Of a stretch of DNA of 48,563 nucleotides, positions 5,516 through 48,563 are shown in pieces (positions within the stretch are counted from its first letter, which is position 1; every line of letters starts with the position of its first letter). A program made the translations under genes and the position numbers. Source of the DNA: Candidatus Andersenbacteria bacterium RIFCSPHIGHO2_02_FULL_46_16 (GTDB taxonomy: Bacteria; Patescibacteriota; Andersenbacteria; UBA10190); assembly GCA_001817065.1 (NCBI GenBank), contig MHHQ01000027.1, forward strand, positions 30,866-79,428, written 5' to 3'. The notes below the pieces were generated by a model. That model saw only the letters and a list, made by a program, of their open reading frames with translations, had not been told where the DNA came from and searched no databases.

Positions 5516-6964
5516 ATGAAGTACTACATCACCACACCCATTTATTACGTCAATGACAAGCCGCACGTCGGCTCGGCTTATACCACCATCGCCGCTGACG
5601 TCTTAGCCCGTTACCACAAGCAACAAGGCCATGACGTCCATTTCCTTACTGGCACAGCTGAGCACGGCTCCAAAATAGCGGGCAGCGCTAAAGCCGCTGG
5701 CCAATCACCGAAGGCTTTTGTTGATAAAAATGTCAAATTCTTTAAAAAGGCTTGGGAAGCCCTCGGTATCAGCTACGACGATTTCATTCGCACGACGGAA
5801 AAACGACACGAAGACGCCGTTAATCTTTTCTTCGACAAACTATATAAAACAGGCAAGTTATATGAAGGGGAATATGAAGGACTCTACTGTGTCGGTCATG
5901 AAGCGTTCATCAAAGAAGAGGACTTAGACGACCAAGGCAACTGCCCCGACCACGGTAAGCCGCCGGAAAAAATTAAAGAGAGCAACTGGTTTTTCAGATT
6001 ATCCGACTATGGCGAATTGTTGCGGGATAAAATTACCAGCGGTGCCCTAAAAATATCTCCCGAGATCAGACGTAACGAAGTCTTATCGTTAATTGAACAA
6101 GGGCTGGAAGACATTGCTATCTCCCGCCGTACAGCAAAATTTGCCCTGCCGCTGCCCTGGGATAAAGAACAAACCATCTACGTTTGGCTGGACGAGTTAT
6201 TTAATTATTGCTCGGCGATCGGCTACGGCAAGGACAAGAAGAAATTCAAACGCTATTGGCCTGCCGACGTTCACATAATCGGCAAAGATATCTTAAAATT
6301 TCATTGTGTCATATGGCCTGCTTTGCTGGACGCGATAGGGGAGGAACTGCCTAAGCAAGTCTTTGCCCACGGCCACTTTACTATCGACGGCCAGAAAATC
6401 AGCAAAACCCTAGGCAACGTTGTTGATCCGGTTGATCTGGTAGCGGACTATGGTGCCGACGCCATTCGTTATTTCCTCCTGCGTGACATTCCTTTTGGTA
6501 ACGATGGTGATTTTTCCCATACTCGTCTGAAAGACAGATATAATGCCGACTTAGCTAATGGTCTCGGTAATCTTGTCTCCCGCACCCTCAACATGATCCA
6601 GCAGTATGCCCCCGACCAGGACTATCAGGCTAATAATAAAATTCTTCCTCGTGAAGTTAAAAGCACCCTAAAGCTAGTTGATAACTATATTGAGAAGCTG
6701 GAATTTCATCATGCCCTGGCGGTCATCTGGTCTGTCGTCAAAACAGCTGACAACACCATCGAGGAAACCAAACCTTGGCAATTGATGAAGGGCGGAAAGG
6801 AAGATCGTGCACAAAAAGTACTCGCTGAGCTCTTCCAAATATTACTAGCCGTCAATAAACAAATCGCTCCTTTCCTGCCTGACACTCACGCCAAGCTGGA
6901 CCAATTGCTCAGCGCCCGCCCTATCAAGAAACCCAGCGACCCTTTGTTTGCCCGCAAGGCTTAG
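5516..6964 (+). CDS. metG: methionyl-tRNA synthetase
   Basis: This class Ia synthetase (482 residues from the ATG at 5516) charges initiator and elongator tRNA-Met. The start is set by the family's usual N-terminus MKYYITTPIYYVND; an upstream TTG adds seven residues and is unlikely. The HIGH motif is HVGS and the KMSKS motif is KISKTLG. The connective insert carries a reduced C-x-x-H...C-x-x-H knuckle (YCVGHEAF, NCPDHGKP). The anticodon-binding helical domain is complete. The C-terminal EMAP/Arc1p-type tRNA-binding domain found in some MetRS is absent, so this is the short form. Confidence 0.97.
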   Translation: MKYYITTPIYYVNDKPHVGSAYTTIAADVLARYHKQQGHDVHFLTGTAEHGSKIAGSAKAAGQSPKAFVDKNVKFFKKAWEALGISYDDFIRTTEKRHEDAVNLFFDKLYKTGKLYEGEYEGLYCVGHEAFIKEEDLDDQGNCPDHGKPPEKIKESNWFFRLSDYGELLRDKITSGALKISPEIRRNEVLSLIEQGLEDIAISRRTAKFALPLPWDKEQTIYVWLDELFNYCSAIGYGKDKKKFKRYWPADVHIIGKDILKFHCVIWPALLDAIGEELPKQVFAHGHFTIDGQKISKTLGNVVDPVDLVADYGADAIRYFLLRDIPFGNDGDFSHTRLKDRYNADLANGLGNLVSRTLNMIQQYAPDQDYQANNKILPREVKSTLKLVDNYIEKLEFHHALAVIWSVVKTADNTIEETKPWQLMKGGKEDRAQKVLAELFQILLAVNKQIAPFLPDTHAKLDQLLSARPIKKPSDPLFARKA

Positions 6965-6979
6965 TTATTCCTCATGCCC

Positions 6980-7104
6980 ACACCCAGGTGTTCCCATGTC
7001 CACACCACACCCGGTGTGTAAAGAACGGGTTAAATGCATGCCTACACGCCGTTTTAGACTATGTCTTCCCACTCTCCACACCTGGTGTGTAAAAACCTGG
7101 TGTG
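6980..7104 (+). repeat. cluster of CACACC-N-GGTGTG palindromes
   Basis: Perfect 6+1+6 palindromes at 7006-7018 and 7077-7089, a related ACACC-CA-GGTGT at 6980-6991, and a half site CCTGGTGTG at 7096-7104. They fill the metG to CYTH gap. They could be operator sites or a decayed repeat family. No T-run follows them, so they are not obvious terminators. Confidence 0.6.
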
Positions 7105-7157
7105 AAAAATAAAAAATGTCAACTTTACCAATTTTTATTACCCATTAAGTAAAATCA

Positions 7158-7766
7158 ATGATTGAAGTCGAAATAAAGTTTCCTCTCATCAAGAATAACG
7201 AACAGCTCATCACGGCTGATGCAAAGTTTATTAGTGAAAAAAACGTCACTGATGTCTACTACGACAACGCTACCAACCAACTCACCTTGTCCGATCAATG
7301 GCTGCGCTGCCGCAATGGCCAATTCGAGCTCAAGACCCCAGTAGATGCAAGCACCAAGAACTCTGCCTTTGTTGCTCGTCGATACATTGAGTTAACCACT
7401 GACAACGAGATCATGGCTGCTCTAAATCTGACCGGGCTGGGCCTAGCGCCTGCTCTCCAGCAGAACCACATCGCACCATTTGCGACCGTTAACACTACCC
7501 GACGCTCCTACCAGCATAGTGAACTACATATTGATATTGATCGCACTGATTTTGGCTACGCAATAGGGGAGATCGAGAAACTAATCTCAGATCCATCTCA
7601 AGTAAAAGAAACAGAAAAGGAACTGCAAGACTATCTCTCCGAGCGTCACATCGCCTATTCGCAAGGACATCTCGGCAAAGTCGCTCACTACTTGCAGAAG
7701 CACCAGCCGGACCATTTTCACCAACTAGTCGAAGCTGGTGTAATCAGCCACACCAACGCGCTCTGA
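7158..7766 (+). CDS. CYTH-domain protein, thiamine-triphosphatase-like
   Basis: A 202-residue protein with the CYTH (CyaB/thiamine triphosphatase) tunnel-fold signature: MIEVEIKF at the N-terminus (the ExExK motif), DVYYD, then WLRCRNGQFELKTP. Later strands include RRSY and HIDIDRTDFGYAIGEIEK, which carry further metal/phosphate-binding residues. The family hydrolyses triphosphate-containing substrates with Mg2+. The WLRxRxGxxELK pattern resembles the ThTPase branch, but the substrate cannot be fixed from sequence. Cytoplasmic, apparently monocistronic. Confidence 0.85.
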   Translation: MIEVEIKFPLIKNNEQLITADAKFISEKNVTDVYYDNATNQLTLSDQWLRCRNGQFELKTPVDASTKNSAFVARRYIELTTDNEIMAALNLTGLGLAPALQQNHIAPFATVNTTRRSYQHSELHIDIDRTDFGYAIGEIEKLISDPSQVKETEKELQDYLSERHIAYSQGHLGKVAHYLQKHQPDHFHQLVEAGVISHTNAL

Positions 7767-28236: not shown

Positions 28237-29688
28237 ATGGCGAACACTGAAAACAATAAAGCTAAGGAAAAAATGATAACTCCTCGCGCAAAGGATTATT
28301 CGCAGTGGTATCTAGATATTATCGCTGTAGCTGATTTAGCGGAAAATGGGCCAGTGCGCGGCACGATGATTATTAAGCCATATGGTTACACGCTCTGGGA
28401 GAGGATTCAGACTATTCTCAATGCGCGTTTTAAAGAAGTTGGAGTACAGAACGCATACTTTCCGATGTTTATTCCGGAAAAATTTCTCAAGCGTGAAGAA
28501 GATCACGTAGAAGGATTTGCGCCGGAGGTTGCGGTGGTAACACATGCCGGTGGTAAAAAGCTTGAGGAGCCGTTGATTGTTCGTCCAACTTCAGAAACTA
28601 TAATATATGACACTTTTTCAAACTGGATACAATCCTATCGTGATTTGCCTCTATTGATTAATCAATGGGCTAATGTTGTGCGCTGGGAGATGCGTCCCCG
28701 ACTTTTTCTGCGCACGACGGAATTTTTATGGCAAGAAGGTCATACGGTTCATGAAACCATGGAAGAGGCTGATGAACGTGCACGACAAATGCTCGATGTG
28801 TACAGAGATTTTGCCGAGAACGTCATGGCAATTCCCGTTGTTCGAGGAATTAAATCGGAGTCAGAGAAATTTGCCGGTGCATTTCGAACGTATACAATCG
28901 AGGCCATGATGCAGGATGGTAAAGCGCTCCAGCTGGCGACCTCACACAACCTTGGTACCAATTTTGCCAAGGTGTTTAATGTATCATTTCTTGGCAGAGA
29001 CGGCGAGCAACATTATGGCTCACAGACAAGCTGGGGACTTTCCACGCGGACTATCGGTGGGCTCGTTATGGCGCATAGCGATGACAAAGGTCTCGTGTTA
29101 CCGCCTCGCATGGCATCGATTCAGGCCATTATTACCACAATCGGTCATGGTAGTGATGCAACCAACGTTGAAGAAAAGGCGCGGGAGATAATGAAGGCAT
29201 TACAGGACGCTGGTGTCCGGGTAGAAATTGATGCTCGTGAATTGCGTCCGGGTGAGAAATTCTATGAGTGGGAAAAGAAGGGCGTGCCTATACGTATTGA
29301 ATTGGGACCTAAGGATGTCGCAAAGAATGCAGCGGTAGTTGTTCGCCGAGATACAGGCGAGAAACAGAACATAGCGCTCGATGCTCTTGCGAGCGAAATC
29401 ACAACGCTCTTAGAGACGATTCAAAAAGACCTCTACACAACAGCACTTGAAAGAAGAGTTGCTCATACAAAGACGGCAGACTCATGGGATGACTTTACTC
29501 AAGCGATCAAGGAAGGAAACTTCGTTCTTGCCCACTGGTGCGGCGATGCAGAGGTCGAAAAACAAATCAAAGAAGAAACAGGTGCGACTATTCGCTGTAT
29601 TCCTTTCGATCAAGTACAAGAGACTGGTGCGTGTATCAAAAGTGGCAGGCCTTCAACAGGGCGAGTACTGTTTGCCAAAGCGTATTAG
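28237..29688 (+). CDS. proS: prolyl-tRNA synthetase, archaeal/eukaryotic-type
   Basis: A 483-residue class II synthetase that charges tRNA-Pro. The KDYSQWYLDII start, GTMIIKPYGYTLWERIQ (motif 1), VRPTSETIIYDTFSNWI, RWEMRPRLFLRTTEFLWQEGHT (motif 2 region) and SQTSWGLSTRTIGGLVMAHSDDKGL (motif 3 region) fit the short ProRS branch without the bacterial editing insert. The C-terminus ends near Tyr (GRVLFAKAY), typical for the branch. It lies next to ligase-leader copy A. The last coding bases are repeated at 34183-34247. If the genome has another proS, this copy could be a resistance form; that is inference. Confidence 0.95.
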   Translation: MANTENNKAKEKMITPRAKDYSQWYLDIIAVADLAENGPVRGTMIIKPYGYTLWERIQTILNARFKEVGVQNAYFPMFIPEKFLKREEDHVEGFAPEVAVVTHAGGKKLEEPLIVRPTSETIIYDTFSNWIQSYRDLPLLINQWANVVRWEMRPRLFLRTTEFLWQEGHTVHETMEEADERARQMLDVYRDFAENVMAIPVVRGIKSESEKFAGAFRTYTIEAMMQDGKALQLATSHNLGTNFAKVFNVSFLGRDGEQHYGSQTSWGLSTRTIGGLVMAHSDDKGLVLPPRMASIQAIITTIGHGSDATNVEEKAREIMKALQDAGVRVEIDARELRPGEKFYEWEKKGVPIRIELGPKDVAKNAAVVVRRDTGEKQNIALDALASEITTLLETIQKDLYTTALERRVAHTKTADSWDDFTQAIKEGNFVLAHWCGDAEVEKQIKEETGATIRCIPFDQVQETGACIKSGRPSTGRVLFAKAY

Positions 29689-29720
29689 GTATATCTTTTA
29701 CGATTTTGTTGAATAAGTAG
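29657..29720 (+). repeat. proS 3'-end direct repeat, left copy
   Basis: Covers the last codons and stop of proS plus about 30 bases. It recurs at 34183-34247, nearly identical over the first 45 bases and then diverging. The pair flanks the epimerase/ATP-grasp operon. Confidence 0.75.
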
Positions 29721-34166: not shown

Positions 34167-34184
34167 GGGGTTTTCTACGGAGCA
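34164..34184 (-). mobile_element. right terminal inverted repeat of the IS remnant
   Basis: On the minus strand it begins TGCTCCGTAGAAAACCCC and matches the left end at 24434-24454 in 20 of 21 bases. The proS-tail direct repeat starts directly beside it. Confidence 0.7.
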
Positions 34185-34247
34185 GGGCGAGTGCTGTTTG
34201 CCAAAGCGTATTAGGCATATCTTTTGAAATATTGAAGAAGCAGGTTC
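34183..34247 (+). repeat. proS 3'-end direct repeat, right copy
   Basis: Contains GGGCGAGTGCTGTTTGCC and AAAGCGTATTAGGCATATC, matching 29657-29720 including the proS stop codon. It lies beside the IS right end. Confidence 0.75.
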
Positions 34248-37874: not shown

Positions 37875-38172
37875 CTGTAGCACCAATTTTTCTCTTGATA
37901 TACTATAAAACCATGATCCCATGGCTCCGACGTCCCAATAACAATCACCGCGACTCGTTATTCAACCTGCCCCTCTACCCTCCCGCCCCTAAAAAAATGG
38001 GGGAGTCGATCTTGCCTCCCAGCAACTCACCACCGACGTTAACCAAATACTAAAGTCTTTTTCGGTCGTTAAAGCCCGCCGTCAGTTATCTGAAATAAGC
38101 GAGGAAGAATGGCAACACCGGGGAGAAAAACGAGCGCTAGCTATCTTTCACACTGCGACTAAACATACTTGA
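37875..38172 (+). pseudogene. ligase-leader repeat copy B with a truncated ligase gene
   Basis: The leader, TTGATATACTATAAAACC, and ATG at 37913 are followed by about 250 bases homologous to the ligase start at 48139. The frame MIPWLRRPNNNHRDS... is interrupted at an A7 run (37991-37997). The downstream homology (LASQQLTTDVNQILKSFS, SEISEEEWQHRGEKRALAI) is in the -1 frame and ends at a TGA. It is the longest internal copy. Confidence 0.8.
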
Positions 38173-38178
38173 TTCGTA

Positions 38179-38226
38179 TTTGTCAATAATTATTGACAAA
38201 AAGGCTAAGTAAGCCATTGATATATA
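38179..38226 (+). promoter_or_regulatory. operator palindrome and -10 box upstream of precursor candidate 1
   Basis: A perfect 22-base palindrome TTTGTCA-N8-TGACAAA (38179-38200), 20 bases, then TATATA (38221-38226) in a TTGATATA context. The same palindrome with the same 20-base gap lies at 41480-41527. Confidence 0.7.
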
Positions 38227-38400: not shown

Positions 38401-38526
38401 GTGAAGCAAAGAAAAAAGAGCCAACAGAGGAACAAACCTGTTTCTCACATTGTATGCCGTGGCAATCGCCGTCGCATTGTTGCTCATCGTGAGGCACTCG
38501 GTGCAGTCAAGTACAAAGGACAGTAG
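38401..38526 (+). CDS. 41-residue basic peptide, candidate RiPP precursor 1
   Basis: A short gene with an excellent ribosome binding site (AAAGGAGG, 7 bases before the GTG). The product begins MKQRKKSQQRNKP, contains one Cys in SHIVCRGNRRR, and ends EALGAVKYKGQ. It is followed by a terminator-like hairpin and then a radical SAM/SPASM gene with an N-terminal PqqD-like domain, the usual order of precursor and modifying enzyme. It resembles the 42-residue ORF at 42734 in length, basic start and an (E/Q)AL-x-A segment before the tail. A hairpin ATGACCA/TGGTCAT (38332-38355) lies in its leader. A RiPP role is inference. Confidence 0.6.
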   Translation: MKQRKKSQQRNKPVSHIVCRGNRRRIVAHREALGAVKYKGQ

Positions 38527-38544
38527 CCAGTTAACCTCCATCTT

Positions 38545-38578
38545 GGGTGTGAGAAAAACACTTTTTCACACCCTTTTT
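38545..38578 (+). terminator. attenuator between precursor candidate 1 and the radical SAM gene
   Basis: GGGTGTGAGAAA pairs with TTTTTCACACCC, followed by five T. Its place between a small ORF and its enzyme suggests partial termination that favours precursor mRNA. Confidence 0.85.
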
Positions 38579-38601
38579 CAAATCTTGATAGGAGCTGAAC
38601 T

Positions 38602-39969
38602 ATGAGAATGAATGTTTATTCGAGAAACGGTAGACACTTATTAGTGTTCGCTGACCAGCCGCAATGGTTAGTAGTAGATGATGTTGGTAAAGATATAGCC
38701 GATAATCTTTTCTTAAAAAAGAAAAGCATCAAACAAATTGTGGCCTCTTATCCACAAGAAGAAAGAGAGGTAGTGCAAAGCACATGCGCGGAAATAGTTG
38801 AATTAACAAGCGGAAGTAAAGAAAACGAGGTTCGCATTAATAAACCGCTTACTTCTCATGCGACCATTGCAATGATTAGCTTAACAAGAACTTGTAATCT
38901 AGCCTGTCCTCACTGCTATGTTGATGCTAGGAAAACCAAAGGCATAGAGTTGTCTCTCAAGGAGCATGAGTTACTGGCAAAGCAGGTTAAAGAAGTGCTG
39001 GCCACAAACGACCTTCTTGAATATCAAGTTAACCTAACCGGCGGTGAACCGTTTATGCGTTCAGATATTTCTGAGATTGTATGCATTTATTATGAGTCTG
39101 GTTTCCGAGTAAGCATAAGCACTAACGGCTTACTAATTAAAGATAGACACTTAGACCTCCTACATCAGGTTGATGCGGCACTATCTATTTCTCTTGATGG
39201 GTCATCCGCCAACGCACACGAAATAATTAGAGGCCCAGGCACGTTCAAGCCAACTGTCCAAAATATACGGATGCTAGTGGAACGAGAAATCAGAGTGAGT
39301 GTGAACTATTTGGTGCATGCGGGAAATATCAACGAGTTGGGTGAGACCATAAGCCTTGCATATGATCTCGGCTGTGCTGCCTTTAACCCCATAAACCTAA
39401 TTCATCTAGGTAGGGCAAGGAAATCAAAACTTCAGAGAGCCCCCGAGGCAGAGATTTTCCGAACATTAGCTGGCCACTTGGTTACACACCCAGAGCAACA
39501 AGCAATGTTCAGGAAAACTTCGCTATTTTCTTCCTTGGGCGCTGCTCTCATGGGAGGAATAATTTGTGTCTCTTGTGGAGTAGGGGACAGGCCTTGTGTA
39601 TACATTACACCAGAGGGAGACGTGTATCCTTGCTCTAACACGCAGGATCCCAAATTTTACTTAGGCAATATTAGGGAGCGTAGCTTAGTCGATTGTTTGA
39701 GCAAAAAACAGCCGGTATATGTTGAGCTTCAAACGCTGGATGTCGACCATCTCAATGATATTTGTGCAAAATGTGACGTTCGCTACTTTTGCGGAGGTGA
39801 CTGCCGCGGTGAAACATTCAAAGTGACCGGCGATCTCTACTCTCCTTATGCGCATTGTTTAGATAGGCATGATTCCATAATAGAATTAATGTGGATTGTT
39901 TCCGAGAGCCCTGAACTCTTTGCTGAACGTAGTGCCGAATATGTCATGAACGCGGATAGGCAAGCGTGA
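38602..39969 (+). CDS. radical SAM/SPASM peptide-modifying enzyme 1
   Basis: A 455-residue protein. Residues 1-75 resemble a PqqD-like peptide-binding domain (FADQPQWLVVDDVGKDIADN, then a helical SIKQIVASYPQEEREVV part). The radical SAM cluster is CNLACPHC (C98, C102, C105), with the GGEPFMR segment after it. The C-terminal SPASM region has CVSCGVGDRPC, GDVYPCSN, CAKCDVRYFCGGDC and a final Cys, for auxiliary Fe-S clusters. Such enzymes form thioether, C-C or other crosslinks in ribosomal peptides. A ribosome binding site AGGAGC lies 6 bases before the ATG. The likely substrate is the small ORF just upstream. Confidence 0.88.
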   Translation: MRMNVYSRNGRHLLVFADQPQWLVVDDVGKDIADNLFLKKKSIKQIVASYPQEEREVVQSTCAEIVELTSGSKENEVRINKPLTSHATIAMISLTRTCNLACPHCYVDARKTKGIELSLKEHELLAKQVKEVLATNDLLEYQVNLTGGEPFMRSDISEIVCIYYESGFRVSISTNGLLIKDRHLDLLHQVDAALSISLDGSSANAHEIIRGPGTFKPTVQNIRMLVEREIRVSVNYLVHAGNINELGETISLAYDLGCAAFNPINLIHLGRARKSKLQRAPEAEIFRTLAGHLVTHPEQQAMFRKTSLFSSLGAALMGGIICVSCGVGDRPCVYITPEGDVYPCSNTQDPKFYLGNIRERSLVDCLSKKQPVYVELQTLDVDHLNDICAKCDVRYFCGGDCRGETFKVTGDLYSPYAHCLDRHDSIIELMWIVSESPELFAERSAEYVMNADRQA

Positions 39970-39975
39970 TATCTT

Positions 39976-40009
39976 AGCAGGACAAATATTTTATTTATCC
40001 TGCTTTTTT
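39976..40009. terminator. terminator between convergent radical SAM and methyltransferase genes
   Basis: AGCAGGA...TCCTGCT with an inner AAATA/TATTT pairing and six T after it on the plus strand. Confidence 0.8.
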
Positions 40010-40731
40010 GCGATCACAATTAGTCGATCACTTCTATATGAATATTTATCTTTGTTAAAACCACCTTTAAAAACAAGGTTACTATTTTTTATTCCTGCTG
40101 TTGCAAACAATGTCTTAATCTCTGGTGCCATAAAATATTGCGTACTTGACTCTAACACAGCACGACCTCTTTTTTCTCGTGCTAAAAGATGTAGGTTTAT
40201 AGCGTCGAATTCTAGTTCATCAGTATCTTCTGCCTTTTTGTTATGTTCTGTTAAGAACCTAACTAGTCTAAATACATTGTCTATATCCACACAAATAATA
40301 CCTTCCATTGTTGTTGCGGAAACCATTTTGGTGATTAAATTTTGAGCTTCAGATAAATCACGACAATAACTAAACGATGAAAAAATGCAATAAGTGATAT
40401 CGTAACACTCATGTTCAGGTTGCCAGTCAGCGAAAGATTGGTTTTGGATAGTGAAATTACTGTCGTTGACATTTTTTTTAGCTTGCTTAACCAGTTGGTT
40501 AGACAGGTCAATTCCTAAACCGTTTGGTATTCCCAATTGTTGAAATACCTTCAAGTGACGCCCGTCTCCGCAACCGACATCACAAACAGAATGCGGCTTT
40601 TTGCTTAATGACTCTATTAAAAAGTTAACTTCTTGTGCAGCTCGCGAAGCAGTAAAATAGTCCTTATGTTCATCGAGGTAATACTTGTCATAGTAAGTCT
40701 GAATTGCTTTTTGTCCTTTTATTACATTCAT
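39991..40731 (-). CDS. class I SAM-dependent methyltransferase
   Basis: A 246-residue protein with motif I SVCDVGCGDGRHLKVF, acidic GLGIDLSN, and CYDITYCIFSSFSYCRD. The C-terminus (SYRSDRLIVIAKK) is of the common small-molecule/peptide methyltransferase type. It converges on radical SAM gene 1, and remnants or relatives of the same type occur at 40808 and 44346. It may methylate the modified peptide; that is inference. Confidence 0.85.
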   Translation of the reverse strand: MNVIKGQKAIQTYYDKYYLDEHKDYFTASRAAQEVNFLIESLSKKPHSVCDVGCGDGRHLKVFQQLGIPNGLGIDLSNQLVKQAKKNVNDSNFTIQNQSFADWQPEHECYDITYCIFSSFSYCRDLSEAQNLITKMVSATTMEGIICVDIDNVFRLVRFLTEHNKKAEDTDELEFDAINLHLLAREKRGRAVLESSTQYFMAPEIKTLFATAGIKNSNLVFKGGFNKDKYSYRSDRLIVIAKKQDK

Positions 40732-40807
40732 AATTGTATGTTATTGGAACTTACCTATGAAAACAAACAAAACTCCTTATTGTTAATATTATAACTAACC
40801 GTATTAT

Positions 40808-41246
40808 ATGCGTACGAGTTGTTCGTTCTGTGCTGTTGGGTGTGGGTGTAGTACTCTTTACAGCTTTCTAGGTTTTTTCTGGAGGTGGAGCAGGCCATCT
40901 TCAAATTTTAATGACAACGACAGCTATTCAGCAATGAGAAGTGAACAGATCTTACGAAGATTGGAGCCTGACGGGGAAACAAATTCAGAAAAACGTGAAC
41001 GCAACTGTGACAACTCGCACCCTTAATTTCAACCCGGAAACATTTCGTGCAGATTTACAGTGGCAAGTTTCTCAAAACACAAAGAAGGTTTCGTTTAGTG
41101 GAAAGTTGCGTTTGTACACGCCACCAGAGATTAATCACCTTCTTAGCGAGCGAGGCTTGGTTATTAGAAAAACGTATGGTTCATTCAGTGATGAGACATA
41201 CAATATTGATACACAGCGTTACCTGGTAGTAGCGCAAAAGATATAA
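40808..41246 (+). pseudogene. decayed SAM-dependent methyltransferase
   Basis: The last part (40941-41246) reads LRLYTPPEINHLLSERGLV, KTYGSFSDETYN and RYLVVAQKI, the usual C-terminus of this methyltransferase type. Upstream pieces in other frames (TLYSFLGFF) look like its middle part. No motif I remains. It is frameshifted and 5'-truncated. Confidence 0.55.
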
Positions 41247-41318
41247 TTAATGTCACAAATACGTTTACATTCTAAGTAGGGTAGTCTTTGAGAATGGTTG
41301 AGCATTGTGGGCGCCATT

Positions 41319-41422
41319 CAGTAGCCCCAATTTTCCTCTTGATATACTATAAAACCATGATCCCATGGCTCCGACGTCCCAATAACAATCACCGCGACTC
41401 GTTATTCAACCTGCCCCTTTAA
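41319..41422 (+). repeat. ligase-leader repeat, copy C
   Basis: The same leader and promoter as copy A, with ATG 41357 and 21 codons (MIPWLRRPNNNHRDSLFNLPL) ending at a TAA at 41420-41422. Homology ends there. Confidence 0.85.
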
Positions 41423-41479
41423 CCGGCGCCTCCGCAAAAAAACAAGAGAACCAATTTAGCCAAAAAGCACTATTATATA

Positions 41480-41527
41480 TTTGTCAATAATTATTGACAA
41501 ATATTACTTAAAACTACTTGATATAAT
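41480..41527 (+). promoter_or_regulatory. operator palindrome and -10 box upstream of the 71-residue peptide
   Basis: The palindrome TTTGTCA-N8-TGACAAA (41480-41501) is identical to 38179-38200. After 20 bases comes a perfect TATAAT (41522-41527). Confidence 0.75.
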
Positions 41528-41586
41528 ACAGATTCAGTGTATTCTTTTTTAGTTCTTTCGTACCTTCCAATTTAAGGGGACTCACA

Positions 41587-41802
41587 GTGAAGAAAAAACC
41601 TGCCAAGAAAGAACCAGTAGCAACAAACAAAGAAAAGGCTTTCATTAAAAAGTGTGTCAAGGAATACTTGTGCGAACATGGGTATGATAGAGATATGGCG
41701 CATTTACGACGGTTGTTGTCTGCGATAGAAGAGAAAGGAGGTAATTCATCTGGGTTGGGTATGATGTTTGGTAGCGATGACAGTGCTAATCCCTTTTCCT
41801 AA
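41587..41802 (+). CDS. 71-residue peptide, candidate RiPP precursor 3
   Basis: A GTG start with AAGGGGA 7 bases upstream. The N-terminus is very basic (MKKKPAKKEPVATNKEKAF), the middle is helical with two Cys (KKCVKEYLCEHGYD), and the tail is Gly/Ser rich after a GG pair (KGGNSSGLGMMFGSDDSAN). This leader-GG-core layout suits a modified peptide. It shares its operator with precursor candidate 1 and is followed by an attenuator and a methyltransferase. I do not recognise a family. Confidence 0.6.
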   Translation: MKKKPAKKEPVATNKEKAFIKKCVKEYLCEHGYDRDMAHLRRLLSAIEEKGGNSSGLGMMFGSDDSANPFS

Positions 41803-41907
41803 GGAGAAAGCGCAGAAGTTTTAATGTGGCGGTTGTCGGGCTAGAGCTTTCGTCGAGTATAATGATTACCTTGCTCCCGATCCTCATTGTTGGTTGTAAC
41901 CCTTTCG

Positions 41908-41935
41908 GGCTATCATGGACGATAGCCTTTTTCTT
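41908..41935 (+). terminator. attenuator before the methyltransferase gene
   Basis: GGCTATC-ATGGAC-GATAGCC followed by TTTTTCTT. The ATG at 41915, the apparent start of the methyltransferase frame, lies in its loop, so the true start is more likely the ATG at 41939. Confidence 0.8.
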
Positions 41936-41938
41936 AGT

Positions 41939-42406
41939 ATGAACATTTACCTACAACGATTTCTAAATAAGTTCGATAAACCAGGCAAGGCATTAGACTT
42001 GGGTGCTGGCGACTTTTTTGATGTGGCTTGCCTTAAACAACTAGGTTGGATTTGCGATGGCGTAGATCTTAACACGGGAGTGGATCTAAATAAGCTATAC
42101 ATCGGAAACAAACAATATGATCTGGTTTTTTCTAATTACGTTATTCAGAGGCTGGATTCCAAAGATGTGTTGGTGTCTTCCGCTTACCGCAACTTAAAAG
42201 AAGGTGGCTGGTTTTTCCTGCATACTTTTGATAAGTCGGATAAGAGCGCCAAGGGTTTTGATAAAGACTGTATCGTGAATCTGTTAAAAGACGGTGGTCT
42301 TATTGACGTTAAAGCAAAAATATTCAGCTTCTATGATAATGAACATCAACACTGGCACAAAGTTATTGAAGTTATAGGAAGAAAGCCCTCAAAATTGCCT
42401 AGTTAA
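41939..42406 (+). CDS. short class I SAM-dependent methyltransferase
   Basis: About 155 residues from ATG 41939, compact for the fold. Motif I KALDLGAGDFFDVACL, the acidic DGVDLNTG and DLVFSNYVIQRLD are visible. KEGGWFFLHTFDKSD is the central strand region. The C-terminal substrate part is short. It follows the 71-residue peptide across an attenuator and may act on that peptide; that is inference. Confidence 0.75.
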   Translation: MNIYLQRFLNKFDKPGKALDLGAGDFFDVACLKQLGWICDGVDLNTGVDLNKLYIGNKQYDLVFSNYVIQRLDSKDVLVSSAYRNLKEGGWFFLHTFDKSDKSAKGFDKDCIVNLLKDGGLIDVKAKIFSFYDNEHQHWHKVIEVIGRKPSKLPS

Positions 42407-42733
42407 GTAGACTAAGTCCAAATCTCTCTAAAAATAAAGGGGGTAGTTCATATCGTGATTCTTTGTTCAATTCACTACTTGACCTACAAGCGCTTCACTT
42501 CAATAACAAGTAAATAAAGCTGCTCCCAAGCCTTAAATATGTCATTCAACCATGACAAAATCAATACTACGTCCTATTGATCCCAATTCACGATTGATTA
42601 TACTTATAAAATTCTGAATCCGTCTTGTTCGCTCACAACTGAATCATAAAACATCCTATTACCCATGTTAAGGACTGTCATTTCCTGTACATAGTAGAAC
42701 CTTTGTCACTCAGAACAGAAAGGAGAAAACGCT
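42407..42733. other. leader region of precursor candidate 2
   Basis: No full gene. TTGATTATACTTATAAAA (42595-42612) resembles the repeat promoter, with TATACT at 42599-42604. Bases 42455-42480 read RDSLFN in one frame, like the ligase N-terminus, possibly a very decayed repeat copy. Confidence 0.45.
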
Positions 42734-42862
42734 ATGAGCAAGGCACGAAAGCTATCGAAGAAGAAAATACGTAATTCTTCATTGCGACGTGAACGTTCTC
42801 GCTACCGTCTCACTCAAGCTCTGAATGCTTTCGACGGTGACAAACCGCGCCGTGGTAAGTAG
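42734..42862 (+). CDS. 42-residue basic peptide, candidate RiPP precursor 2
   Basis: A short gene with AAAGGAG 8 bases before the ATG. The product starts MSKARKLSKKKIRNSSLRRE, continues RSRYRLTQALNAFDG and ends DKPRRGK. It is followed by a terminator-like hairpin and then a PqqD-like/radical SAM/SPASM gene, the same order as at 38401-39969. The shared length, basic N-terminus and (E/Q)AL-x-A segment suggest it is a relative of candidate 1. The candidate core residues (Tyr, Asn, Phe, Asp) lie in the tail. A RiPP role is inference. It could otherwise be a small basic nucleic-acid-binding protein. Confidence 0.6.
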   Translation: MSKARKLSKKKIRNSSLRRERSRYRLTQALNAFDGDKPRRGK

Positions 42863-42869
42863 ACCTAAA

Positions 42870-42914
42870 GGGAGCTTCCTTCATTTAAGAGATCAAGAAA
42901 GCTCCCTATTTTCA
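42870..42914 (+). terminator. attenuator between precursor candidate 2 and the radical SAM gene
   Basis: GGGAGCTT (42870-42877) pairs with AAGCTCCC (42899-42906), followed by TATTTTCATT. Confidence 0.75.
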
Positions 42915-42933
42915 TTAAATGGAAGGAATTTTA

Positions 42934-44307
42934 ATGAGAGATTACATGATTTTATCAACGGATTTTACTTTGAAAGGATCACACGAAGAACAGGTATTGT
43001 TGCACTTAGCGGGAGGAGAGAAATATGAACTCACGCGGGATCAATATGATCTGTTGTGCCTCTTTGACGGATCGTTCACCCTAAGCCAAATCCACTCCCA
43101 GTATGATCGAGCTTCGCAAATAGTAATTGAAAAATTCTTAGCTAGGCTCAATAAGCTTGGAGCAATAACTTCTTCAAGTAAGCGGGGACAAAGGAAAGCG
43201 CAACGAAAACTTGTCTCATCTCCCCGGTTAAAGAACGTGCAACTCGAAGCCACAAGTGTCTGTAACTTATCGTGTGCTCATTGCTATCAAGCATCAATGT
43301 ATCCCGTATATAAAAACATCACTCGAGCTGATTGTGATGAACTGATTGCTCAGCTATCAACCATGCAAGTTGAAGGGGTGAGTATTAGTGGCGGAGAACC
43401 ACTTCTTGATAGTAAAACAATTCATCTAGCACACGAGGTTGAACGCAACGACATGAGAGTCACCTCGTTATTCACTAATGGACTTTTACTGGATAAGGAC
43501 ATAGCGGCAGAGATTAGTAGCTGGCGAAGTCAACCGACTATCTTCATTAGTCTAGACACCCTAGTTCCAGAGAATTTTCGCTTTCGAAGCATTCAACGTA
43601 AGGCAGCTAAAATAGCACTAGGTAGAGTCTTTGATGGTATCACAATGATTACGAGCAAAGGATTGCCCATCGTAATCAACACCGCCGTTAATCAATGCAA
43701 CCTATCTAAGTTATTTGACATGCATGAATATATCAAAAATCTTGGTATTGCTAGCTGGCGCCTTGGTTTCCCAAAAAGAACAGGCAATTTTCGTGATTCG
43801 TATCACGATTTGGAGGTACCTTGGGATAATCTGCTATCTGCCTCTTTTGCTCTGCTTCGGCACCACCTTGAATGTGGCAATCCCTTCCATATCCAGATTG
43901 AGTACCTATATAGAGACGAGCTTTTTGCAGATATGGCAATGTTGCCCGATTCATCCTATGTATGCGACTACGAAGGAAGGCGTAACAGTTGTTGCATTAA
44001 ACCCAATGGCGATGTCGTTTCATGTGCTTATTGTAGTAAAATGCCACTAGGAAACATCCTAATACAAAGGATGGAGAGTATCTGGTACTCCGGTTCGATG
44101 CAATCAATCAAAAACATGCGGATCTGTGATGTGACCGAATGTTGCGATTGTACATTGAGGGGGTACTGCGCTGCTGGATGTAGAGCTAATGCCTCGTTCT
44201 TGGGAGGAGACTTCAAAACATCAAAAGATCCCTACGCTTGTCAGGCAGTCCGGTATTTTGTCGATCAGGTTCTTCCATATCTTCGACAGCAAGGAATTGC
44301 TAAATAA
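42934..44307 (+). CDS. radical SAM/SPASM peptide-modifying enzyme 2
   Basis: A 457-residue protein from ATG 42934, chosen because GGAAGGA lies 6-7 bases upstream; an ATG at 42919 adds five residues. The first 80 residues form a PqqD-like domain (LLHLAGGEKYELTRDQYDLL, FTLSQIHSQYD). The cluster motif is CNLSCAHC, followed by SISGGEPLLD. The SPASM part has CDYEGRRNSCCIKPNGDVVSC, CSKMPLGN and CCDCTLRGYCAAGC with a final CQAV. It resembles enzyme 1 in architecture. The likely substrate is the 42-residue ORF upstream. Confidence 0.88.
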   Translation: MRDYMILSTDFTLKGSHEEQVLLHLAGGEKYELTRDQYDLLCLFDGSFTLSQIHSQYDRASQIVIEKFLARLNKLGAITSSSKRGQRKAQRKLVSSPRLKNVQLEATSVCNLSCAHCYQASMYPVYKNITRADCDELIAQLSTMQVEGVSISGGEPLLDSKTIHLAHEVERNDMRVTSLFTNGLLLDKDIAAEISSWRSQPTIFISLDTLVPENFRFRSIQRKAAKIALGRVFDGITMITSKGLPIVINTAVNQCNLSKLFDMHEYIKNLGIASWRLGFPKRTGNFRDSYHDLEVPWDNLLSASFALLRHHLECGNPFHIQIEYLYRDELFADMAMLPDSSYVCDYEGRRNSCCIKPNGDVVSCAYCSKMPLGNILIQRMESIWYSGSMQSIKNMRICDVTECCDCTLRGYCAAGCRANASFLGGDFKTSKDPYACQAVRYFVDQVLPYLRQQGIAK

Positions 44308-44345: not shown

Positions 44346-45023
44346 ATGACAATACCTTATTCCCTATTAGCTAAGTGGTACGACCAGCTTTACTCTGACG
44401 ACTTTTATAATCAGTATGCTATCTTTATCCAGTCCCAAGCACAACAATATAAAATTTCAAAAATAGACCTGTTAGACGTTGCCTGCGGCACCGGAAGATT
44501 GTTATCCAAGCTTGTTCCTTATAGCGTCTCTTCTGTTGGAATTGACTCGTCTGCAGGCATGCTTGCAGAAGCAAGAAAAAAACTGCCACAAACAAAATTT
44601 CACCTACAAAACATGACTGCTATTAGAATTAGTGGTATGTACAATGTTATTACGTGCACCTTTGACTCATTAAATTATGTGTTGAATATAGATGATGTCC
44701 AAGAATATTTTCGCAATATTAAAAAACTGTTAAAGGAGCAAGGCATTTTCATCTTCGATTTTAATACGATTCACAAAAAACCCCTTGGTCTAATAAGCAA
44801 AGGTAAAATAACCTACAAGGACCGCACCCATGGCACCTTTTGGGATATAAATATCCATACACCCAGTGGACAAGAATTTCATCATGAAAAATTATATACG
44901 CTAGAGGAAATAAAACACGCCTTAGAGGTAAACGGTATGCACATCAAGAAGATTTATTCTAATTTCAGCACACAAATTACTAAGGAGGACAAACATCCAA
45001 GAATAATAGTAGTTGCCCAATAA
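44346..45023 (+). CDS. class I SAM-dependent methyltransferase
   Basis: A 225-residue protein. LAKWYDQLYSDDFYNQY at the start, motif I LLDVACGTGRLLSKL, acidic VGIDSSAGML and ITCTFDSLNYVLN place it among the methyltransferase-11/25 type that often accompanies natural product genes. It lies directly after radical SAM 2 and its terminator and is possibly a tailoring enzyme. The C-terminal RIIVVAQ is complete. Confidence 0.85.
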   Translation: MTIPYSLLAKWYDQLYSDDFYNQYAIFIQSQAQQYKISKIDLLDVACGTGRLLSKLVPYSVSSVGIDSSAGMLAEARKKLPQTKFHLQNMTAIRISGMYNVITCTFDSLNYVLNIDDVQEYFRNIKKLLKEQGIFIFDFNTIHKKPLGLISKGKITYKDRTHGTFWDINIHTPSGQEFHHEKLYTLEEIKHALEVNGMHIKKIYSNFSTQITKEDKHPRIIVVAQ

Positions 45024-45079: not shown

Positions 45080-45338
45080 AATAGCCCCAATTATTCTCTT
45101 GATATACTATAAAACCATGATCCCTTGGCTTCGTCGTCCCAATAACAATCACCGCGACTCGTTATTCAACCTGCCTCTTTATCCACCAGCCCCAAATAAG
45201 AAGGGTGGGATAGACTTAGCGTCGCAGCAACTCACCGCGGACGTTAATCAAGTCCTAGCCTCTTTTTCCGTCGCCAAGGCCCGCCAACAGTTATCTGAAA
45301 CCAGCGAAGAGGAATGGGTAACCCTTAGTATTGGTTAA
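45080..45338 (+). pseudogene. ligase-leader repeat copy D with a truncated ligase gene
   Basis: Leader, TTGATATACTATAAAACC and ATG 45117. The 73-codon frame is uninterrupted (MIPWLRRPNNNHRDS, then PPAPNKKGGIDLASQQL, SFSVAKARQQLSETSEEEW) because AAATAAGAAG replaces the A7 run of copies B and E. Homology to the ligase ends after EEEW and a TAA follows. Confidence 0.8.
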
Positions 45339-45376: not shown

Positions 45377-46369
45377 ATGGTTATGATCATTCCAGAAAAA
45401 TTGAAACCTGGTGACATGGTTCGCGTTATTGCACCATCTAATACGATGAGTGAAACGGTAAAGATAAACTCAAAAAATGCGCTTAAGCGATTTAATGAAG
45501 ATTTATGCCTGAATGTTTCTTTTGGAAAACATATAAACCATACAGACAAATTGAACAGTACGAGTATTGAATCAAGAATAGACGATTTACACTCCGCTTT
45601 TTCTGATCAGAAAGTTAAGGCTGTTTTTGCTGTTATGGGTGGCTTCAACAGCAATCAACTATTAAAATATATCGACTGGAGTGTAATATCCAATAATCCA
45701 AAAATATTTTGTGGATATTCTGACATTACTGCCCTCAATCTTGCTATCTTGTCAAAGACAAACATAATTACCTACTCTGGCCCCGTATATGCAACCTTTA
45801 ATGATGAAATAAACTTTGAATATACTTTGGACTATGTTAGGCGGTGCCTCTTTTCACTAAACCAATTTACGATAGAACCATCGAAGCTATGGAGTGATGA
45901 CAAATGGTACATTGATCAACAACAAAGAAACCTTATCAAGAACACCGGGCATCTGATTATTAATAAAGGCAGTGCGGAAGGTACAATTATTGGTACAAAT
46001 CTCAGCACCATAAATTTGCTTCAAGGATCCGAATTCTTTCCGCAGCCAAAAAACTCAATTCTTTTTCTGGAAGATGACTATAATTCAAAACCAGCAATAT
46101 TTGATCGACAACTTCAAGCACTGTTACATTTGCCCGGATTCATAAAAGTTAAAGGACTTGTTCTTGGTCGGTTTCAGAAGGAGAGCTACATCAACGACAA
46201 CGACTTGATAAGAATTATTAAATCAAAAAAAGAGTTAAGCATAATGCCGATCATAGCCAATGTTGATTTTGGACACACACAACCGATGGTCACATTGCCA
46301 ATAGGAGGGTTAGCGAAAATTAGTATCAGTGACTCAGTCAACAGTAAAATTGAAGTAATAGAACATTAA
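45377..46369 (+). CDS. S66-family serine carboxypeptidase, MccF-like
   Basis: A 330-residue protein. KPGDMVRVIAPSN is the usual S66 start. VMGGFNSNQLLKYID resembles the MccF branch (GGxxSNQLL) rather than LdcA (GGYGxxRLL). GYSDIT carries the catalytic Ser, FLEDDYNSKPAIFDRQL the Glu region, and DFGHTQPMVTLPIGG the His. MccF cleaves microcin C and gives self-immunity; LdcA trims peptidoglycan peptides. It lies after ligase-leader copy D and converges on a radical SAM gene with a tiny ORF. ATG 45383 is an alternative start. Confidence 0.85.
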   Translation: MVMIIPEKLKPGDMVRVIAPSNTMSETVKINSKNALKRFNEDLCLNVSFGKHINHTDKLNSTSIESRIDDLHSAFSDQKVKAVFAVMGGFNSNQLLKYIDWSVISNNPKIFCGYSDITALNLAILSKTNIITYSGPVYATFNDEINFEYTLDYVRRCLFSLNQFTIEPSKLWSDDKWYIDQQQRNLIKNTGHLIINKGSAEGTIIGTNLSTINLLQGSEFFPQPKNSILFLEDDYNSKPAIFDRQLQALLHLPGFIKVKGLVLGRFQKESYINDNDLIRIIKSKKELSIMPIIANVDFGHTQPMVTLPIGGLAKISISDSVNSKIEVIEH

Positions 46370-46439: not shown

Positions 46440-47603
46440 TCACACCTCCTTTCTGGATTTAGTAAACGATTCTTCCATTTCTCGTTGAGATGGAAAAACA
46501 AACTCCGGATCAAGCCCCTCCTCGTTTATCAAGCTCTTGTAAATAGTGCGCAACCGAGAAGATAGTATTGGCACAATCTTTTCTTCCACAAGTGGCATCA
46601 CCGAGCACGACAATGGGTCTATCGCATCACATTTTCCCATCCATTCCAAGGCTTCACCACGGCAACCCGTGCCACACAAGCGGTAATAACGACAACGTTT
46701 ACAATTACCCAATTCCCCCTGACGGAGCAGGAAAAAGGGGTGTGTAGAGTACACATTCACTAGTTGTAAAAAATCGTCATACTCCCAGGCTCGAGCAATT
46801 TCTAACTGCAACGGTGAGCAAATAGAAACTTTGCCATCTACTCCAACTGCCATCTTACCAATTGCATATGCGCAAGGGTGAGCATTGTCAAAACCCGGAT
46901 CATCCATATTGTCTGCAGCAAGGTTCTCCAATGAACTTTTATACACGCGGAAAGCGGTCAACTCCATTCTTTGCAAATGGCCATTCTCGTACCTATCTTT
47001 AATGATGTCAGCAACAGTCGTTATTACTTCTCTAAACGAGGCATAGACAGAAGTCGAAGGAGATTTCATAGGTAAATCGAGACGCCAGTGATTGATACCC
47101 ATCTGCACAAGTGTCTCCTGAAAACTTCTCAGCTCGGGAAGGTTATATTTGGTGAGGATTGTGTTAATGGTCACATGGCATTGCGGAGCCACTTTTTTCA
47201 CAAGCTCAATCTTTTTGATCACATCTTTCGCCTTACTTGGTGGACGGGCTTTCTCATGTGATACCAATCCATCTAATGAAACCTTTATTTCTTGGACTTG
47301 TCCTGTGGTGAGTATGTCCGAAATAAGTTGGTCATTAACCTGATCTCCATAAAGGTTAGAAAATAGTATCACATGGCCACCAGAACATGCTCTAATCAGT
47401 TCCAGGATCCCTGGATGTTGTAGAGGTTCTCCACCAGAAATCGAGATTCTTTTAACCCCGTACTCCAGGGCTCCCTTTATCAGCTTGACGAACTTTTTAA
47501 TATTGCCATGTGCCAAACCTTTTCTTCTCCGAGTCACAAAGCAATATTCACAATTCAAGTTACACCTATTTGTAATATCAATATGAAGCGCGGTGATTTT
47601 CAC
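46440..47603 (-). CDS. radical SAM/SPASM (twitch-like) enzyme 3
   Basis: A 387-residue protein from a GTG at 47603, supported by AGGGGA 7-8 bases upstream. CNLNCEYC (C14, C18, C21) binds the radical SAM cluster and SISGGEPLQHPG follows. The C-terminal part has CAYAIGKMAVGVDGKVSIC, CKRCRYYRLCGTGC and a late CDAIDPLSC, so at least one auxiliary cluster is likely. Unlike enzymes 1 and 2 it has no PqqD-like domain. It is related to MoaA/PqqE-like peptide modifiers. The transcript also holds an 8-codon ORF and a terminator. Confidence 0.87.
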   Translation of the reverse strand: MKITALHIDITNRCNLNCEYCFVTRRRKGLAHGNIKKFVKLIKGALEYGVKRISISGGEPLQHPGILELIRACSGGHVILFSNLYGDQVNDQLISDILTTGQVQEIKVSLDGLVSHEKARPPSKAKDVIKKIELVKKVAPQCHVTINTILTKYNLPELRSFQETLVQMGINHWRLDLPMKSPSTSVYASFREVITTVADIIKDRYENGHLQRMELTAFRVYKSSLENLAADNMDDPGFDNAHPCAYAIGKMAVGVDGKVSICSPLQLEIARAWEYDDFLQLVNVYSTHPFFLLRQGELGNCKRCRYYRLCGTGCRGEALEWMGKCDAIDPLSCSVMPLVEEKIVPILSSRLRTIYKSLINEEGLDPEFVFPSQREMEESFTKSRKEV

Positions 47604-48100: not shown

Positions 48101-48138
48101 AGTAGCCCCAAAATTCCTCTTGCTATACTATAAAACCA
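48101..48138 (+). promoter_or_regulatory. ligase promoter, copy E of the repeat leader
   Basis: CAGTAGCCCCAAAATTCC then TTGCTATACTATAAAACC; TATACT lies 8 bases before ATG 48139. This copy precedes the longest version of the gene, so it is likely the parent of the other copies. Confidence 0.7.
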
Positions 48139-48563
48139 TGATCCCATGGCTCCGACGTCCCAATAACAATCACCGTGACTCGCTATTCAACCTGCCCCTC
48201 TATCCGCCCGTCCCTAAAAAAACGGGGGAGTCGATCTGGCCTCCCAGCAACTCACCGCCGACGTTAACCAAATATTAACGTCCTTCTCTGTTGTTAAAGC
48301 CCGCCGCCAGTTATCTGAAATTAGCGAGGAAGAATGGCAACACCGGGGAGAAACCAGGGCCCTCGCTCTTTTCCATGCCGCGGCCGAGCTTGTACCTGCC
48401 TATAAAGATTATTTGCAGAAAAATCAGATCAAACCGGACAAGATTAAGACCATAGCAGACTTCAAACAAATCCCTCTCGTCGATAAAGAAAACTATCTGC
48501 GTGTTTATCCGCTCGACCAGCTCTGCTGGCATGCCAACATATCGTCCAGCCAAATGATCTCGG
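48139..48563 (+). CDS. PaaK/F390-synthetase-like adenylating ligase, 5' part (frame broken at A7)
   Basis: Starts MIPWLRRPNNNHRDS. After the A7 run (48216-48222) the homologous frame continues at -1: GVDLASQQLTADVNQIL, SEISEEEWQHRGETRALAL, AELVPAYKDYLQKNQI, FKQIPLVDKENYLRVYPL and on to the window end. The last part matches the N-terminus of phenylacetate-CoA ligase/coenzyme F390 synthetase-type adenylating enzymes (PAYKDYL...FKQIPLVDKENY). The catalytic core lies outside the window. Either the gene is a pseudogene, the run is an assembly error, or slippage on A7 restores the frame. Confidence 0.65.

Follow-up and report, generated by a model that had tools for sequence, protein, structure and literature searches.

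Do the very short open reading frames (ORFs) that precede two radical S-adenosylmethionine (SAM) genes in a Patescibacteria genome encode the substrates of these enzymes, or are they regulatory or accidental? The question is raised by a stretch of 48,563 nt from Candidatus Andersenbacteria bacterium RIFCSPHIGHO2_02_FULL_46_16 (contig MHHQ01000027.1, positions 30,866 to 79,428; the window means this whole stretch). An earlier reading of its letters, the original prediction, had proposed a likely system for ribosomally synthesized and post-translationally modified peptides (RiPPs), in which each small ORF is the substrate of the enzyme behind it. Ortholog ORFs, a third precursor family and maturase-like structures support this proposal, and we conclude with considerable confidence that the window holds two neighbouring RiPP cassettes, each made of a precursor gene, a hairpin, a radical SAM/SPASM maturase fused to a RiPP recognition element (RRE), and a class I methyltransferase. 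The data show the ORFs with their ribosome-binding sites, the hairpins, each peptide's conservation at the amino-acid level together with its enzyme family, a predicted enzyme fold and the linkage of the methyltransferases; modification of the peptides, and the whole of the chemistry, is what we infer. The parts of the cassettes are:

38401 to 38526, plus strand: precursor 1, MKQRKKSQQRNKPVSHIVCRGNRRRIVAHREALGAVKYKGQ, 41 aa, GTG start, Shine-Dalgarno (SD) sequence AGGAGG 7 nt upstream
38545 to 38573, plus strand: hairpin 1 with U-run in the gap between precursor 1 and enzyme 1, 12 pairs followed by TTTTT (terminator scan)
38602 to 39969, plus strand: enzyme 1, putative N-terminal RRE (PqqD-like), radical SAM and SPASM domains, 455 aa; PF04055, PF13186
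39991 to 40731, minus strand: class I SAM methyltransferase, convergent with enzyme 1; PF13649
42734 to 42862, plus strand: precursor 2, MSKARKLSKKKIRNSSLRRERSRYRLTQALNAFDGDKPRRGK, 42 aa, ATG start, SD sequence GAAAGGAG upstream
about 42869 to 42907, plus strand: hairpin 2 with a weak U-run in the gap between precursor 2 and enzyme 2, 16 pairs
42934 to 44307, plus strand: enzyme 2, putative N-terminal RRE, radical SAM and SPASM domains, 457 aa (462 aa from the upstream ATG at 42919)
44346 to 45023, plus strand: class I SAM methyltransferase downstream of enzyme 2; PF13649

Small ORFs and maturase-like enzymes

Both small ORFs are present with ribosome-binding sites, as predicted, and the N-terminal tail of both peptides is rich in lysine and arginine. 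An (E/Q)AL-x-A element that the two peptides were thought to share did not hold up: the similarity is at chance level (4117 of 5000 shuffles score as high), and the element is missing from the peptides that precede both enzyme orthologs described below.

The radical SAM/SPASM gene reported behind each ORF is complete in both cases, with PF04055 and PF13186 above the Pfam cut-off. The motif CxxxCxxC lies at residues 98-105 and 115-122 of the two enzymes and CxxCx5CxxxC at residues 388-401 and 408-421, and most radical SAM/SPASM cysteines are invariant in alignments of 30 sequences. Enzyme 2 probably starts at 42934 rather than at 42919, because GAAGGA lies shortly before this codon and because M6 is the residue that aligns with the first one of the ortholog in genome G214.

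The PqqD-like N-terminal domain was missed by Pfam but recovered from structure. A Pfam PqqD domain was found on neither N-terminus, even at an E-value of 1; since PF05402 overlooks most recognition elements outside pyrroloquinoline quinone (PQQ) clusters (PMC7470986), this miss is uninformative. In the AlphaFold models (mean predicted local distance difference test, pLDDT, of 87 for enzyme 2 and 81 for enzyme 1) the N-terminal domains of both enzymes are winged-helix-like; residues 9-86 of enzyme 2 are modelled as b-b-b-b-a-(b)a-a with a pLDDT of about 95, and residues 3-69 of enzyme 1 as b-b-b-a-a-a. Foldseek placed SuiB, TigE, CteB and SkfB at the top ranks for enzyme 2 and CteB, SkfB, SuiB and TigE for enzyme 1, in alignments of about 390-485 columns that cover nearly the whole length of each enzyme, N-terminal recognition domain included. 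Profile searches of the PDB returned SkfB (E 2e-23), CteB (5e-21) and PqqE (5e-19) for enzyme 1, and SkfB, CteB and 8vpo (TigE) for enzyme 2; the CteB and TigE alignments take in the N-terminal domain, starting at column 25 (CteB) and column 17 (8vpo) in enzyme 2 and at column 37 (CteB) in enzyme 1.

The solved structures nearest to these models, CteB, SuiB, TigE and SkfB for both enzymes, are all RiPP maturases. Domain order, cysteine motifs and the near-full-length fold are alike in the window enzymes and in the RRE-fused maturases CteB, SkfB, SuiB, TigE and StsB, at 15-21% identity in structural alignments. The window systems differ from these in precursors without conserved cysteines, and their methyltransferase partner and lysine/arginine-rich leader are distinctive. 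The best NCBIfam match of enzyme 1 was StsB (NF045574), at 150.9 bits against a curated cut-off of 625, so that it is not a member of that family; its match to the mycofactocin maturase had an E-value of 9e-36.

Precursor and enzyme pairs in other genomes

Orthologs were sampled in about 380 genomes across the phylum. For enzyme 2 there is a single clear ortholog, in G214 (44% identity), and for enzyme 1 likewise one, in G175 (33-36% identity); both genomes lie outside the window's class. No ortholog of either enzyme was found in 12 other sampled genomes of the window's class (family, order and class searches) or in the viral contigs searched, a search of the class of G214 returned G214 only, and a second phylum search, in which largely the same genomes were redrawn, added nothing new. 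A scan of genome contigs with the enzyme 2 alignment and a generic CNxxCxHC pattern was uninformative on orthologs; among the matches listed there were only remote radical SAM enzymes with 22-30% identity.

The neighbourhood search proposed earlier found homologous ORFs at the same position at both orthologs. In G214, MKRKKKLVSAALTKKDCTLRLTQALNSGSQGPDTSRT with the SD sequence GAAAGGAG stands upstream of the enzyme, and in G175, MRKFRILNRGNRRIVVLTKESQGTMYYRGQ with AGGAGG. The last 25 residues of precursor 1 can be aligned gap-free with the last 25 of the G175 peptide, with a score of 61 against 45 for the best shuffle (0 of 5000 shuffles as good); the conserved segment of this family, family 1, reads RGNRR...E..G...YxGQ up to the C-terminus. 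Precursor 2 and the G214 peptide (family 2) have RLTQALN and a lysine-rich start in common, again with 0 of 5000 shuffles as good, and the segment after RLTQALN varies. Four of the seven RLTQALN codons differ synonymously and none non-synonymously, so the similarity is not conservation of DNA alone. The original prediction would have been refuted by enzyme homologues consistently lacking such ORFs or by ORFs free of coding constraint; both orthologs keep a homologous ORF, and synonymous codon changes lie within the conserved segments. The methyltransferases follow the same pattern: that at 39991 to 40731 has a 29% homolog in G175, likewise convergent to the enzyme, and that at 44346 to 45023 a 39% homolog that immediately follows the enzyme gene in G214.

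Since short ORFs are common, and many in the window are meaningless, two spurious small ORFs might simply happen to precede radical SAM genes. The chance control comprised 130 radical SAM ORFs from retrieved loci, some of them overlapping, with the loci of the contig scan among them. An SD-led ORF of 20-80 aa located 20-130 nt upstream is rare, occurring at 10 of the 130; four of these belong to orthologs or to the third family described next, and one more is the third peptide at the G173 locus. Together with the synonymous changes in the homologous ortholog peptides, this makes coincidence scarcely credible.

A third precursor family came from a scan upstream of more distant radical SAM genes, which yielded MKKRNKPETKKPRITVRIGKGSCGICD (G340) and MKNKVVKKRIKVRIGKGSCSICD (G132), followed by enzymes that are 58% identical to each other. 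A search with this third-family enzyme added G303 (...KARIGKGSCAICS), G170 (...KARIGKGSCGICD), G117 (...KVRIGQNGCRTCDTNG) and the divergent G238 (...VKVLKCRCMTCDVN). The family thus has five members and one divergent member in the same layout as the window cassettes: the peptides carry RIGKGSCxICD/S in G340, G132, G303 and G170, RIGQNGCRTCD in G117 and KVLKCRCMTCD in G238, and the family keeps CxxC. Between the G340 and G132 precursors, 16 aligned codons including the stop show 8 synonymous and 2 non-synonymous differences. A methyltransferase of the kind that accompanies this family is also encoded in the window:

41945 to 42406, plus strand: small class I methyltransferase, 48% and 46% identical to those beside the RIGKGSCxICD cassettes of G132 and G340

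As layout and methyltransferase correspond, the window cassettes are part of a broader group of radical SAM RiPPs with tiny precursors in the phylum, a group apparently not yet described. A further locus, in G173 (L017 2545-2953, minus strand), has two tandem tiny basic ORFs, then MKVRVMAMNTIIKQSSSHCGCHLP, adjoining two radical SAM genes and an arginase-family gene. The tandem precursors have identical 16-residue N-termini and differ at their C-termini (ARYNCGRG and TRYSCRRG), which is the usual leader/core pattern.

Two observations lie at the edge of this set. In G214 the cassette 2 ortholog is part of a larger biosynthetic locus: beyond it (L039 10643-15778) come genes for a class I/II aminotransferase fold and an amidohydrolase, one of unknown kind, and a third-family radical SAM gene (37% to G132). 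In a Deltaproteobacteria metagenome-assembled genome (L044, about 5550-7158), a 20-aa ORF, MKIKKVEKVSKGLCKCKSSC, lies directly upstream of a remote enzyme 2 relative that includes the N-terminal domain; the tiny-precursor layout may thus reach beyond the phylum.

Hairpins and the possible product

A rho-independent-type hairpin had been reported after each ORF. The call stands for hairpin 1, which was scored by the terminator scan and whose gap of 75 nt has a folding energy of -24.1 kcal/mol (z -3.7 against shuffles). Hairpin 2 is a hairpin (-17.1 kcal/mol; gap z -3.6), but its tail is weak (ATTTTCATT) and it was not scored as an intrinsic terminator. G175 has a 12-pair hairpin with a U-run at the equivalent place, unrelated in sequence to hairpin 1, and a hairpin also lies upstream of the G214 enzyme, after its tiny ORF. 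The third-family peptides have hairpins on their 3' side as well, some of them weak against shuffles (z -1.0 in G170, about -2 in G340 and G132). As a separate observation, the G214 precursor ORF (L039 8117-8311) itself holds a further hairpin whose arms (GGCCTTGA...TCAAGGCC) are those of the downstream one, a layout that resembles a classical attenuator and was not seen in other cassettes.

That the hairpins are attenuators, as also proposed, is less secure: the structures are there, their regulatory role is putative, and hairpin 2 and several relatives are without a good U-run. The attenuator layout leads to a different account of the short ORFs, namely that they are regulatory leader or arrest peptides whose translation controls attenuation at the hairpin, and hence radical SAM expression, and are not substrates. 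A short ORF, a hairpin and a gene in this order form the classical arrangement, and a sequence-specific arrest peptide would likewise show conservation of amino acids. Pairing of the ORF with the 5' arm of the hairpin, analysed in 10 cassettes, was strong only in G214 (1 of 500 shuffles as good) and no better than shuffles in the other nine, both window cassettes included. Runs of a single codon are absent, the tandem G173 precursors vary at their C-termini, and the enzymes have a predicted peptide-binding domain and resemble RiPP maturases. We therefore regard the leader-peptide account as quite improbable and continue with the ORFs as precursors.

A working model of the cassettes would run as follows. 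The hairpin may stabilise the mRNA or limit read-through and so set the precursor-to-enzyme ratio, with the precursor made in excess. The N-terminal recognition element of the maturase would bind the basic leader; a 5'-deoxyadenosyl radical from the CxxxCxxC cluster, with the SPASM clusters, would abstract a hydrogen and install a bond, a crosslink or another change in the conserved segment, which would be the core or overlap it. The methyltransferase may methylate the product, and proteases and exporters would release it. Precursor 1 has one cysteine and the G175 peptide none, precursor 2 has none and the G214 peptide one, so that neither family shows the core cysteines of sactipeptides or ranthipeptides. 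As cysteine is not conserved, thioether chemistry seems unlikely in families 1 and 2; in the third family, with its CxxC, it is possible. Ryptides contain an Arg-Tyr crosslink, which is a lead for RGNRR...Y: our first guess for family 1, from RGNRR and the Tyr near the C-terminus, is an Arg- or Tyr-centred crosslink.

The product might instead be a small redox cofactor cut from the C-terminus of the peptide, in the manner of PQQ or mycofactocin, and not a secreted antimicrobial or signal. By definition it would still be a RiPP, so that this idea competes on the product and not on the reading of the cassettes. The original prediction had held that precursors so short and basic match none of the radical SAM RiPP families known to it; PqqA averages 23 aa (PMC3023750), and the window precursors are near PqqA and MftA in size. 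The resemblance extends to a SPASM maturase (enzyme 1 matches PqqE and the mycofactocin maturase, as given above) and to a conserved C-terminal motif, YxGQ in family 1, and third-family peptides mostly end in CD. Unlike in PqqA/PqqE and mycofactocin MftA/MftC, however, the RRE is fused and is not a separate PqqD or MftB, and the precursor sequences differ. pqqB-D, mftB and mftD-F were not among the neighbours scanned (the rest of the genome was not searched), and no dehydrogenase partner was noted. The segment after RLTQALN is variable in family 2, and the very patchy distribution (about one in 380 phylum genomes, none of the 12 other class members) suits an accessory product better than a core cofactor. 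A cofactor is thus the less likely product, though a contender to be taken more seriously than a leader peptide.

Streptococcal radical SAM RiPPs (RaS-RiPPs: streptide, streptosactin, bicyclostreptin, enteropeptin and ryptide) also have a short precursor beside a radical SAM gene, but no Rgg/SHP regulator or exporter was noted adjoining the window cassettes, and the precursor sequences are unrelated. A broader idea, which we find plausible but would not quite bet on, is that the loci described here form a class of minimal radical SAM RiPPs across this phylum of the candidate phyla radiation (CPR) type, spread as modular cassettes, with a chemistry unlike that of described radical SAM RiPPs. 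Such systems would combine a K/R-rich leader on a precursor of about 23-42 residues with a dedicated maturase and, in most cases, a small class I methyltransferase; the core families, mutually unrelated, would be RGNRR...YxGQ, RLTQALN, RIGKGSCxICD and the G173 peptides.

Several points weigh against two RiPP cassettes in the window. With only one close ortholog per window family, each conservation claim rests on a pair, and support beyond the two pairs comes from the six third-family members; for precursor 2 and the G214 peptide the margin is modest (score 52, best shuffle 48). Basic leaders such as those of the window precursors are unusual, and no known precursor family in Pfam or NCBIfam matches either peptide. 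Both enzymes score far below the curated cut-offs of their best NCBIfam matches, which gives no ground for naming a product. Neither a dedicated exporter nor a leader protease could be recognised within the cassettes. The assembly consists of 32 contigs with an estimated contamination of 2%, and the window stops at a contig end.

Surroundings of the cassettes and significance

Between and around the cassettes lie an additional small ORF and a repeated candidate control element:

38177 to 38200: 24-bp sequence with a perfect 22-bp palindrome (TTTGTCAATAATTATTGACAAA), upstream of precursor 1
41478 to 41501: second exact copy of this sequence, upstream of the 71-aa ORF
41587 to 41802, plus strand: 71-aa ORF, MKKKPAKKEPVATNKEK...GSDDSANPFS, SD sequence AAGGGG; no homolog found

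The two copies are the only exact ones in the whole 1.36-Mb genome, and a control pattern gave none; the sequence is a candidate for a shared operator or promoter element. The 71-aa ORF is followed by a terminator-like hairpin (41907-41928) and the small methyltransferase, and it is possibly, though uncertainly, a third substrate or an accessory peptide.

A 124-nt repeat lies between the modules in four copies that are 88-91% identical (37878-38001, 41322-41445, 45082-45205 and 48103-48226) and extends to 300 nt in two of them. It has no Pfam match and resembles the 5' part of a single gene (MIPWLRRPNNNHRDSLFNLPL...) that is truncated or carries a frameshift in several of the copies. The cassettes have a G+C content of 39-41%, against 45% in the first 29.7 kb of the window. 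This contrast, the separating repeats and the patchy distribution suggest that the cassettes were acquired as modules. Elsewhere in the window, a 57-nt copy of a gene 3' end is found at 29657-29713 and 34183-34239 (source ORF 28237-29688, proS-like). The copies bound a module with a DAP (diaminopimelate) epimerase-like gene, two D-Ala-D-Ala-ligase-like ATP-grasps and a C39-like peptidase, seemingly an insertion next to a gene end that was duplicated, the pattern also shown by the 124-nt repeat.

Two neighbouring genes were noted in addition. A third radical SAM enzyme (46440-47603, minus strand) is without the N-terminal domain, and no small precursor ORF was seen upstream of it; between it and the cassettes, 45377-46369 encodes a Peptidase S66 (LD-carboxypeptidase / MccF fold) that could serve self-immunity or cell-wall recycling. 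Viperin or other defence roles were rejected, as the PADLOC matches reflect only the common radical SAM or methyltransferase core.

RiPPs have been recorded in the CPR as graspetides (PMC8939145) and in a handful of antiSMASH regions (PMC12153355). RiPPs in this group, for which wide interest was first claimed, are therefore not new as such. The graspetides are likewise predicted RiPP clusters in this same group of small symbiotic bacteria, with ATP-grasp chemistry and not radical SAM chemistry. No radical SAM RiPPs were found described in the CPR, in literature whose coverage leaves out most subscription papers. The genome size of 1.36 Mb fits a patescibacterium, as do the sizes of 0.5-2.0 Mb found across its phylum. 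For Patescibacteria, which are poor in biosynthetic genes and live on other microbes by attachment, a costly, oxygen-sensitive peptide-modifying system is unexpected. As the peptide-enzyme pairs are kept in distant lineages, they are probably overlooked peptide natural products. Precursors so short may escape gene callers, and their clusters may then go unnoticed too; with two genes each, the pairs are small enough for direct testing. A radical SAM peptide-modifying system of this kind may bear on the relationship between Patescibacteria and their partners.

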